A stretch of DNA of 64,000 bases from Parapedobacter composti (GTDB lineage: Bacteria; Bacteroidota; Bacteroidia; Sphingobacteriales; Sphingobacteriaceae), in the NCBI RefSeq assembly GCF_900112315.1, contig NZ_FOLL01000001.1:620001-684000 (forward strand). The letters are read 5' to 3'. A program made the position numbers and the translations under genes. Position 1 is the stretch's first letter, and each line of letters starts with the position of its first letter. Under the pieces are notes generated by a model. That model ran no database searches. It was not told the DNA's origin and saw only the letters and a program-made list of their open reading frames with translations. Positions 60,479-64,000 of this stretch are shown piece after piece.

Positions 60479-61015
60479 GTGAAAATAATAGAAAAGTTGT
60501 ATGAGCGTATATTTCCCGCGGTGGCACGGCACGTAGCCGGAAAAGGCGGTAGCTTGGAAGAGGCAAAAGATGTATTTCATGATGCCCTGCTGGTTTACGT
60601 TGAAAAAACACGCAGCGGCACGTCAGACATGCGGCAAAGTGAGGCTTATGTCTTTGGCGTGGCACGCTATCTATGGATAAAGCGGTACAAAGAAAATTTG
60701 CGGTATGCGTCGCTGGATCAATTGATGGCCGGGTATGATCAAGAGGACCCAGGCGCTTACTGGACGCAAGAATTCCAGCCGCAGGACGAACTTGTATCAA
60801 GCGGCCGCGTTTTCCGGCTACTGCAGGCCGCAGGCCGGAAGTGCATGGATGTGCTTGCCGCGTTTTATTACGAAAAGCTGGATATGCAGGAACTGGCAAA
60901 CCGCTTCGGGTTCGCAGGCACACGATCGGCAACCGTGCAGAAATTTAAATGCCTGCAAAAGGTTAAACAAGTAGTCAAAGAAAAATCGCTCCGCTATGAA
61001 GACTTTGTTGGATGA
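60479..61015 (+). CDS. ECF-type RNA polymerase sigma factor (fourth)
   Basis: The 178-residue protein has sigma-2 (GSLEEAKDVFHDALLVYVEK and AYVFGVARYLWIKRYKEN, residues 20-80) and sigma-4 (about 118-170, CMDVLAAFYYEKLDMQELANRFGF). The start appears to be GTG at 60479. It overlaps the next gene by 20 bases, a small protein of the anti-sigma type. The sequence is more divergent than the three earlier sigma factors. Confidence 0.85.
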   Translation: MKIIEKLYERIFPAVARHVAGKGGSLEEAKDVFHDALLVYVEKTRSGTSDMRQSEAYVFGVARYLWIKRYKENLRYASLDQLMAGYDQEDPGAYWTQEFQPQDELVSSGRVFRLLQAAGRKCMDVLAAFYYEKLDMQELANRFGFAGTRSATVQKFKCLQKVKQVVKEKSLRYEDFVG

Positions 61016-61348: not shown

Positions 61349-62041
61349 ATGACCAGCTATAGCAATGAATTTCGCCGGTATGCGGTGCACCACCGCGGCA
61401 TCAACGGCATGTATGTAGACCATTATGTTTCACGTGCAACGGCCATGCCCGCGGCCATGACACCTTACATCACCGAAGAGCGGCAGCTCAATGTAGCCCA
61501 GATGGATGTGTTTTCAAGGCTGATGGTTGATCGTATCATCTTTCTCGGCGAACCGGTGGACGATCGGGTGGCCAACATCATCCAGGCGCAGTTGCTTTTT
61601 CTGCAATCGGCCGACCCGAAGAAAGACATCCAGCTGTATATCAATTCGCCGGGAGGCGCTGTATATGCCGGACTGGGGATCTATGATACCATGCAGTATA
61701 TCGGCCCAGATGTGGCCACCATCTGCACGGGCATGGCCCTGTCCATGGCTGCGGTGCTGCTATGTGCCGGAGCCGGAGGCAAGCGGGCGGCACTTCCGCA
61801 TGCCCGCGTGATGATACACCAAACCTCCGGCGGTATGCAGGGCACGGCGGCGGATATGGACATCAGTATCCGGCAGACACTTAAAATGCAGCAAGAGTTG
61901 TATGCAATCATCGCTGCCCATAGCGGACAAGATTACGATGTGGTGGATAGGCTGTCAGATCGGGACCATTGGATGACGGCCGCCGAGGCTAAAGAATTCG
62001 GTATGGTGGACGAGGTGTTAGGCACCGGTATTAACCGCTGA
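61349..62041 (+). CDS. clpP: ATP-dependent Clp protease proteolytic subunit (accessory copy)
   Basis: The 230-residue protein has the ClpP triad: Ser132 in GMALSMAAV, His157 in MIHQTSGG and Asp206 in SDRDHWMTAAEA. The oligomer motif YINSPGGAVYAGLGIYDTM is present. A 35-40-residue N-terminal extension precedes the usual start of the mature core (about residue 40). No Clp ATPase gene is adjacent. In such genomes the main clpP normally sits with clpX, so this may be a second copy; this is inference. Confidence 0.92.
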   Translation: MTSYSNEFRRYAVHHRGINGMYVDHYVSRATAMPAAMTPYITEERQLNVAQMDVFSRLMVDRIIFLGEPVDDRVANIIQAQLLFLQSADPKKDIQLYINSPGGAVYAGLGIYDTMQYIGPDVATICTGMALSMAAVLLCAGAGGKRAALPHARVMIHQTSGGMQGTAADMDISIRQTLKMQQELYAIIAAHSGQDYDVVDRLSDRDHWMTAAEAKEFGMVDEVLGTGINR

Positions 62042-62130: not shown

Positions 62131-62505
62131 TTAATGGCTGCCTTTCGTGCCCGCCCCGATTTTTTCCTCTAGCGCCCTGATGTATTTTTCCTGAACTTTA
62201 ACCAGCTTCTGCAGCGACTCCAGGGTCAGTTCCTCATTCGGCTCTGCACGATGATATCTTTCATTTCCCGGATCGGCCGCGCCCATAGGAGAAAGCGGCA
62301 TTGCCTCAAGATCTCTTTCTACCAGGTGGTTTAATTCGATGTGAAACAAATTCACGATTTTGACCAGCACTTCCAACTTCGGGATAGACCCCCGTTCATA
62401 GGAAGCCACATTATCACGGGTCACATTCAACTGCCTGGCCAATTCAGCTTGGCCCCATTTCCGCTCCTCCCGAAGGAACTTTATATTTTTAGAAAAATAG
62501 TTCAT
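62131..62505 (-). CDS. XRE-family regulator with C-terminal coiled coil
   Basis: The 124-residue protein has an N-terminal XRE helix-turn-helix (residues 3-60: NIKFLREERKWGQAELARQLNVTRDNVASYERGSIPKLEVL). A linker and a C-terminal coiled coil follow (LTLESLQKLVKVQEKYIRALEEKIG), likely for dimerisation. It is divergent from the HTH-sigma-Cas12f-like operon, and its ATG lies at the edge of an operator-rich 81-base interval, so it probably controls both directions. Confidence 0.9.
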   Translation of the reverse strand: MNYFSKNIKFLREERKWGQAELARQLNVTRDNVASYERGSIPKLEVLVKIVNLFHIELNHLVERDLEAMPLSPMGAADPGNERYHRAEPNEELTLESLQKLVKVQEKYIRALEEKIGAGTKGSH

Positions 62506-62586: not shown

Positions 62587-62775
62587 ATGAAGAAAGCGAG
62601 GTATCCCGAGAATTTGCCGCTGAAGCTTGAAATTGTGAAATCCCGGCGCACCATCAAAGAGATTGCCGAGAAAATCGGCGTCAGCAGGGAAGTGCTGACA
62701 AACACCGTGAATGGACACTATAAAGGTGTCGAGGTGATTAAGAAACTGAAGTCTGAACTAAACATCAACGATTGA
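62587..62775 (+). CDS. Small HTH protein at the head of the sigma-Cas12f-like operon
   Basis: The 62-residue protein carries one helix-turn-helix: IVKSRRTIKEIAEKIGVSREVLTNTVNGHYKG (residues 16-47) of the XRE/Cro type, with little else. It overlaps the next gene by 4 bases (TGA in frame with the TTG start region). It could be a Cro-like repressor that counteracts the divergent XRE protein. Confidence 0.72.
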   Translation: MKKARYPENLPLKLEIVKSRRTIKEIAEKIGVSREVLTNTVNGHYKGVEVIKKLKSELNIND

Positions 62776-63611
62776 CGAAAATTTTACGCGCCATGCACGC
62801 ATCGATCTACCGTACCAAGAAAAACGCCGAACGATTTTTCGACGCGCTCAAAGCTGGCGATGAAGCCGGGCTGAATTATTTCTACCGGGCCTATTATAAC
62901 TACTATGCCTGGCGTGCCGAGCGGTTCGTCAAAGACGACGTCATAGCCCATGTTATCGCACAGGAAGCGTTTCTCCGGCTGTGGCTCATGCACGATATCA
63001 TCCGCGACGTACCGCACCTGCACGAATTCCTCGGCAGCCAGCTTCGCGAAGCCGGCATGGCGTATTACCGCAAAACCGCCAACCGCTTCCACCGGAGTAT
63101 GCTGCGGCTGGATGGCATCGAAGATTTTCAGGAGTTCATGCTGGGTTATGAAATAGAGGGAGAAGAGGAGGCAGATGTGGTCTACCTCGAACAGCTGGAA
63201 GCGGAAAAACAGCGGCAACTGGAGCAAATCAATGGGCTGTTGCCCAACCTGACCGCACAGCAGCAGTTGTTTATCCGGCTGTGCCTGCGGTACGGATTCA
63301 ACTACGAGCGCATCGCCTACCATTTGGGTGGCATCTCGGATTACGAAGTGGCCCAGCGTGTGGAGCAGTGCATCGCCAACCTGAAAGCCGCACTGTCTGG
63401 CACGACCAAACTGGACAGCGCCGCCCGCACCAAGCCGCTCGTCGCCGAAGGCATGCTCAGCGATGAGCAGGCGCAGGTACTGGCCATGCGGTATGACCTG
63501 CAATATTCCTTCGAGGAAATCGCCGAGGCGCTGCAACTGGACGACGCCAAGGTGAAATCATTGTTTGTACAGGCACACGCCGCCATTAAGAAGGGGAGAC
63601 AATCGGCCTGA
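62772..63611 (+). CDS. Unusual sigma-factor-like protein with two sigma-4-like segments
   Basis: The product is 279 residues from TTG 62772, or 272 from ATG 62793 (MHASIYRTKKNAERFF). Residues 30-110 resemble sigma-2 (YFYRAYYNYYAWRAE, VIAHVIAQEAFLRLW). Two regions resemble sigma-4 helix-turn-helix: 155-208 (LTAQQQLFIRLCLRYGFNYERIAYHLG) and 228-276 (LSDEQAQVLAMRYDLQYSFEEIAEALQLDDAKVKSL). ECF factors have one sigma-4, so this is unusual. It ends 2 bases before the Cas12f-like gene. Its base composition looks richer in GC than the genes to its left. Confidence 0.75.
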   Translation: MTKILRAMHASIYRTKKNAERFFDALKAGDEAGLNYFYRAYYNYYAWRAERFVKDDVIAHVIAQEAFLRLWLMHDIIRDVPHLHEFLGSQLREAGMAYYRKTANRFHRSMLRLDGIEDFQEFMLGYEIEGEEEADVVYLEQLEAEKQRQLEQINGLLPNLTAQQQLFIRLCLRYGFNYERIAYHLGGISDYEVAQRVEQCIANLKAALSGTTKLDSAARTKPLVAEGMLSDEQAQVLAMRYDLQYSFEEIAEALQLDDAKVKSLFVQAHAAIKKGRQSA

Positions 63612-63613
63612 CC

Positions 63614-64000
63614 ATGGAAAAGAAGACCATCATCCTGACACGGAAAATACAGATATATGTAGACTGCGAAGACAAGGAGCAGAAAGATGCACACTACAAA
63701 CAGCTGTACGAATGGCAGTTTATGGCTTTTCAGGCCGCCAACCTGATTTTCACCCACCTGTATGTACAGGATCGGGTAAAAGACCTGATTTACTTTACCG
63801 ATGAGGTGAAGGTAAAGCTGGCCGACCGCGCCAAGGATGCCGGGGGCGTTTTGAATACCTCGCGGATGAGCACCACCTACCGCGTGCTGTCCGCCAAGCT
63901 ACTGGGCAAGATGCCCTCGGACATCTTTTCCAACCTGAACAATTCGCTTCACAGCGTTTACAGCAGCGAGCGCAGTGCGTACTGGAAAGGGGAGAAGTCG
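63614..64000 (+). CDS. Cas12f/TnpB-like protein, N-terminal part only
   Basis: The 129 codons seen run off the window edge. The opening beta strand TIILTRKIQIYV, a helix with LYEWQFMAFQAANLIFTHL, then MSTTYRVLSAKLLGKMPSDIFSNLNNSLHSVYSSER and a late YWKGEKS are the order and spacing of the WED/REC half of Cas12f- and TnpB-type proteins. The RuvC nuclease motifs would lie beyond position 64000, so it cannot be told whether it cuts DNA or is nuclease-dead. It begins 2 bases after a sigma-like gene. The call rests on pattern recognition, without a search. Confidence 0.5.
   Translation, partial: MEKKTIILTRKIQIYVDCEDKEQKDAHYKQLYEWQFMAFQAANLIFTHLYVQDRVKDLIYFTDEVKVKLADRAKDAGGVLNTSRMSTTYRVLSAKLLGKMPSDIFSNLNNSLHSVYSSERSAYWKGEKS

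Follow-up and report, generated by a model that had tools for sequence, protein, structure and literature searches.

The closest described counterparts of the locus examined here are the dCas12f-sigmaE systems, in which a nuclease-deactivated Cas12f and an RpoE sigma factor belong to an RNA-guided transcription complex whose structures are available as Protein Data Bank (PDB) entries 9n9c, 9n9m, 9n9o and 9n9q (released 2025-12-24). Type V-F Cas12f proteins (AsCas12f, CnCas12f1 and Un1Cas12f1) provide a second point of comparison and the TldR proteins a third; the latter, according to PMC13418256, are nuclease-dead, RNA-guided regulators of surface-structure genes. Our subject is a group of genes at the end of a 64,000-nt stretch of DNA (G000:C30:620001-684000, here called the window), which is part of contig C30 (760,861 bases) in the 4.62 Mb genome of a soil-type bacterium (G000) whose nearest named relatives are Parapedobacter species.

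As far as sequence comparison can establish, this locus is very probably an RNA-guided transcription activator of the dCas12f-sigmaE type. An earlier note on the window had proposed an RNA-guided transcription module, and the proposal is supported by a dead Cas12f, a fixed sigma partner, a scaffold RNA with an adjoining guide array, and guide targets located upstream of genes. The principal features, some of which lie beyond the window on the same contig, are as follows.

62772 to 63611, plus strand: sigma factor of the extracytoplasmic function (ECF) type, 279 aa (272 aa from the ATG at 62793), matching PDB 9n9q_C, TIGR02937 and Sigma70_r4
63614 to 64000, plus strand: dCas12f, N-terminal 129 of 364 aa within the window; the gene ends past it, at G000:C30:684708
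L002:5614-6708, plus strand: complete dCas12f gene, 364 aa, from the contig read beyond 64000
L002:6736-6795 (G000:C30:684736-684795), plus strand: scaffold RNA with conserved, covarying hairpins, beyond the window
L002:6790-7650 (G000:C30:684790-685650), plus strand: array resembling clustered regularly interspaced short palindromic repeats (CRISPR), about 12 guides, repeat GTTGTTGGTGATCACAATTTGAAAGGTATATACAAC, beyond the window

The dCas12f protein and its sigma partner

Extension of the contig past position 64000 completed the third gene of the operon, and its full-length product proved to be a Cas12f homologue, as its N-terminal portion had suggested in the earlier note. A profile built from nine dCas12f homologues matched PDB 9n9c_A ('Nuclease-deactivated Cas12f') over positions 1-363 with an E-value of 2.2e-156, the next best match being catalytic Cas12f (E 3.5e-47). 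Among NCBIfam families the protein matched NF040570 (guided_TnpB, E 6e-17) and, weakly, Cas12f2, while the top Foldseek matches for its predicted structure were 9n9m and 9n9c. Because the AlphaFold models of dCas12f and of the sigma protein are of low confidence, they serve here just as backing for the sequence matches.

The protein shares with type V-F Cas12f its fold and an alignment that runs through RuvC-II. Unlike those proteins, it lacks the catalytic D and E residues, RuvC-III, the zinc ribbon and linked Cas1/Cas2. Specifically, alignment to active Cas12f places S at the position of the RuvC-I aspartate (EASLSIEHP) and N at that of the RuvC-II glutamate (LLLVNQQQ), and the C-terminus precedes RuvC-III and the zinc ribbon, both of which are absent. 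The substitution of two catalytic acids and the loss of the third with the truncated C-terminus leave dCas12f unable to cut DNA, and the dead RuvC is common to all nine aligned homologues. The earlier note would have counted the lack of a RuvC-like fold and zinc-ribbon region against its proposal. The ribbon is indeed missing, yet the solved dCas12f (365 aa) is also without it, and so the proposal stands.

The second gene, read in the earlier note as sigma-like with sigma-2 and sigma-4 segments, encodes a protein with both of these regions plus an extra C-terminal sigma-4-like helix-turn-helix (HTH) element. It matches Sigma70_r4 (E 8e-9) and the sigma70-ECF model TIGR02937 (E 4.7e-14 over positions 34-208, plus a second stretch). 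When a profile of this protein was compared with PDB, a single solved relative was recovered, 9n9q_C, the 'RpoE' of an 'RNA-guided transcription complex' (E 1.6e-52), and Foldseek comparison of the sigma model likewise placed 9n9q at the top (6.5e-11).

Of 301 genomes in the family, 71 contain dCas12f homologues, which fall in 7 of 25 sampled genera; those of Parapedobacter species are 85-97% identical to the G000 protein. The sigma gene lies directly upstream of the dCas12f gene in all nine homologous loci that were fetched and adjoins it in all 30 loci from a family-wide search, some of which come from the same species. A lack of such co-occurrence in related genomes would, by the earlier note, have refuted its proposal, and because the pairing is kept in every homologous locus examined, it is not attributable to chance. 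In P. defluvii the sigma gene is split into two overlapping frames (L004:5158-5998), and in P. indicus the same is true of the dCas12f gene (L007:6001-7093); these splits may reflect decay, sequencing error or programmed frameshifting.

Given the matches to 9n9c and 9n9q and the constant juxtaposition of the two genes, we assign the locus to the known dCas12f-sigmaE system, with which it shares a homologous dCas12f of full length and without a zinc ribbon, and a homologous RpoE partner. The source of the guides differs: in Parapedobacter they come from a multi-spacer CRISPR-like array accompanied by a separate scaffold.

Scaffold RNA and guide array

A structured guide RNA near the gene, which the earlier note had suggested should be sought, is represented by a candidate scaffold with covariation and by a putative guide array downstream of it. 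The scaffold (GAGGCTGCTTGTACAGCCGCAGGGTGAGGTCAGGTTGACACTCACT) lies directly 3' of the dCas12f gene and was recovered in 10 of 10 loci, where it is sometimes present twice or displaced. In an alignment of 21 copies, 92% of the cells in its two hairpins are paired, as against 83% when shuffled and 33-46% when the pairing is slid, and 10 of the 15 pairs carry changes on both sides. The locus gave no match to Rfam.

In Parapedobacter loci the scaffold is followed on its 3' side by a CRISPR-like array with 36-nt repeats and spacers of about 30 nt, giving a period of 66 nt. The G000 array holds about 12 guides, five of them behind near-perfect copies of the repeat, with degenerate copies flanking both sides, and no further copy of the repeat was found elsewhere in the G000 genome. 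Many array repeats are degenerate, and the P. luteus array extends to as many as about 31 repeats. Seven Parapedobacter arrays together yield 84 distinct spacers, which are diverse and differ between species. A locus from another genus (L160) carries the same repeat. Most of the relatives read have no array, and scaffold copies at many loci in the family are accompanied by single guides; the Pedobacter scaffold leads directly into ATACAAC and a single guide, an arrangement present once or twice.

The end of the repeat can pair with the scaffold tail at -8.1 kcal/mol, an interaction that we infer to be plausible and leave at that strength because about 10-12% of shuffled sequences do equally well. 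The handle of Un1Cas12f1 ends in ...ATGCAAC, which the end of the array repeat (...ATACAAC) resembles.

Another CRISPR array in G000 (L027, G000:C21:4001-24000), in which a 30-nt repeat occurs in more than 120 copies, is unrelated to the dCas12f array and adjoins the genome's only Cas1 gene and a Cas3-like gene. As it adjoins this different array, Cas1 was rejected as a linked adaptation gene for the dCas12f module.

Predicted guide targets and a shared leader

All 84 distinct spacers were searched against ten genomes, and matches outside arrays were then read in context. With its own array as the query, G000 gave one strong match elsewhere, the best in that genome, in which 29 of 29 bases agree with a site on contig C56 (C56:8127-8155) located 1.3 kb upstream of a TlpA-like gene. 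A site on C32 lies 680 bp upstream of the TlpA-like leader gene there. Across genomes, matches recur upstream of genes that open with a common DNA leader (ATGAAGCGAAWTTTACGCWTA, encoding MKRxLRLG...) but encode different proteins, namely SusC/RagA receptors (SusC E 2e-137 and 2e-207), TlpA-like redoxins and a zincin. The leader is rare, occurring at four loci in G000 (C34:6788, C56:6860, C43:5389 and C32:239773, the C32 copy being diverged) and also at L071-L086. Unrelated exported proteins share a near-identical DNA start and a common leader peptide, a pattern that would fit the joining of a single expression cassette to different genes.

The case for targeting relies on the orientation of the matches. 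For 23 of 27 protospacers, scored regardless of gene context, the leader start lies downstream on the same strand, and 14 of 18 protospacer loci are positive by this measure. No leader was found upstream of or convergent to the 27, apart from one weak motif with four mismatches near one locus. The earlier note had suggested a search for matching targets in promoters. Distances between protospacer and leader gene span 63 bp to 5.9 kb; those in the nearest group (63-141 bp) have the look of promoter targeting, and far protospacers fall inside divergent Xre, nuclease or other genes. Fifteen of the 20 best matches are located no more than 3 kb upstream of a leader gene, a space that makes up at most 0.23% of strand-positions, for a chance probability of about 4e-36 that is flattered because the leader was first noticed at these loci.

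Exact 12-nt seeds gave 18 sense and 2 antisense matches, with 0.34 expected and none for reversed guides; 15-nt seeds gave 11 sense and no antisense matches. For sense matches whose seed is at least 10 nt long, the base on the immediate 5' side is G in 19 of 35 cases, against a background of 19%. A 2025 preprint on dCas12f-sigmaE reportedly describes a preference for 5'-G beside the target, with which these counts agree in part, several long matches having A or T there. A P. tibetensis guide with a degenerate handle (GGTTGGCGCTTACTT) has 15-base matches in its own genome, at two leader loci, and in G000, at the C56 locus, each after G and 352-450 bp upstream.

A guide beginning GGGCTGCTGT is common to Parapedobacter tibetensis and two Pedobacter species (L005:7291, L009:7344 and L010:7343) and matches, after G, sites 309-317 bp upstream of three P. 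koreensis leader genes; it is perhaps an ancestral guide. No whole-length targets were found for the single guides of Pedobacter. One P. luteus spacer agrees at 28 of 30 bases with an antisense site inside metE (methionine synthase), at G000:C38:92900, and no leader gene was found near this match.

The CRISPR-like array, given its 36-nt repeats and its diverse, species-dependent spacers, could instead record phage and plasmid encounters, with dCas12f and sigma blocking or reporting invaders in a form of type V-F CRISPR defence. T-rich 5' flanks at some protospacers would fit this explanation, as would the mobile-element-like genes at some target loci (a transposase near the C56 site and DUF1016/YhcG nucleases). 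Phage and plasmid searches with array DNA and three viral scans, in which part of the spacers were tried, produced no convincing match, and a single 18-nt viral match does not extend. Because dCas12f is nuclease dead and truncated, no Cas1 lies beside the module and convincing phage or plasmid targets are lacking in the collections searched, we regard immunity as very improbable; two array-bearing genomes contain no Cas1 match at all, and the targets cluster one-way upstream of leader genes.

The same one-way orientation bears on whether dCas12f, bound upstream of genes or within divergent ones, blocks transcription in the manner of TldR, with the sigma factor as a passenger. Nuclease-dead TnpB/Cas12 homologues are established as repressors (TldR, cited in PMC13418256), and several of the targets here do lie inside divergent Xre genes. 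TldR represses and is not known to have a sigma partner or a guide array; at this locus and all homologous loci examined, a sigma partner stands beside dCas12f. Beyond this strict linkage, each of the two proteins has its match in a subunit of a solved RNA-guided transcription complex, and a repressor would have no need of same-strand orientation towards the gene, which is a prediction of activation and not of simple blocking; simple repression thus seems very improbable. We give hardly any credence to a further view, in which the sigma protein is an ordinary ECF factor that recognizes a promoter motif of its own and both the Cas12f-like gene and the array are decaying leftovers. Frameshifts in two relatives, affecting sigma in L004 and dCas12f in L007, and the degeneracy of many repeats would speak for it. 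Against it, nearly all homologues retain an intact dCas12f, with identities of 54-97% and conserved blocks, compensatory changes keep the scaffold hairpins and guides still match leader loci.

Several observations weigh against RNA-guided activation. Many targets lie 0.7-5.9 kb upstream, inside antisense genes and not at a promoter; several long matches are flanked 5' by A or T and not by G; and the majority of spacers find no match in the genome that carries them. G077, from the same genus, has leader genes, and a search at E 1e-30 gave no dCas12f match there. The dCas12f fold model is poor (predicted local distance difference test score, pLDDT, of 50). In addition, some of the loci entering the seed and mismatch counts were first noticed by way of protospacers. 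At 13 independently found leader loci the signal is weak: 28-nt matches numbered 8 in sense and 1 in antisense orientation, where shuffling gives 1.2, and seeds of at least 11 nt numbered 0 and 1, respectively. Outside the sites already discovered, enrichment is modest, and therefore the orientation test carries the target argument.

Proposed mechanism, accessory genes and significance

With the activator reading preferred, the array would be transcribed into guides, and the scaffold RNA together with the repeat end (...GGTATATACAAC) would form the handle bound by dCas12f. Judging from the matches, dCas12f may bind sites with 5'-G beside the guide-matched strand, for which the first 12-15 guide bases are perhaps sufficient. 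By analogy with the solved complex, it would recruit its partner sigma and RNA polymerase. Transcription would then start on the downstream side of the protospacer and follow the guide's direction towards the leader gene, as the solved complex and the one-way orientation of targets suggest. The genes controlled would be those with the common start leader, namely SusC-type TonB-linked receptors, TlpA-like redoxins and a zincin. Far targets may work by way of long transcripts, which would at the same time silence the divergent regulator; this is the least certain part of the scheme.

A more speculative extension, which we offer tentatively, is that the array constitutes a multiplexed, fast-changing programme selecting among accessory surface-protein loci. 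Each guide might start transcription towards one leader gene and silence the divergent Xre-type regulator by antisense reading, forming a two-way switch, and spacers might turn over between species without linked adaptation machinery, being kept only if aimed at leader loci.

Two further genes neighbour the module.

62131 to 62505, minus strand: Xre/HTH_3 regulator, divergent, 124 aa, optional or accessory
62587 to 62775, plus strand: 62-aa HTH protein, first gene of the operon, optional or accessory; HTH_3 E 5e-4, below the Pfam cut-off

The earlier note had treated HTH regulators as part of the module. Each of these proteins is present in just 5 of 10 loci, G000 included, and we consequently regard both as accessory. 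Its description of three packed plus-strand genes is confirmed: the 2-base gap between the sigma and dCas12f genes (63612-63613) is exact, and the 4-base overlap of the HTH and sigma genes (62772-62775) is exact if the sigma gene starts at TTG. In most homologues the start corresponds to the ATG at 62793, which would leave a 17-base gap and no overlap. Farther upstream are a 178-aa open reading frame that is weakly sigma-70-like (window 60479-61015) and a ClpP-like protease gene (window 61349-62041; Pfam E 9e-72).

The kind of system to which this locus is assigned is already known, as its complex has been solved. What is unusual here is the large, changing CRISPR-like array, the separate scaffold and the set of leader-gene targets. 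The novelty of the array is uncertain, and its form may have been described before by the discoverers of dCas12f-sigmaE. As a natural RNA-guided activator with a whole guide array and readable targets, the locus would make the question of which host genes are controlled by dCas12f-sigmaE systems directly testable. A CRISPR-like array whose spacers are aimed one way at host genes also raises the question of how spacers may be gained without linked Cas1-Cas2.
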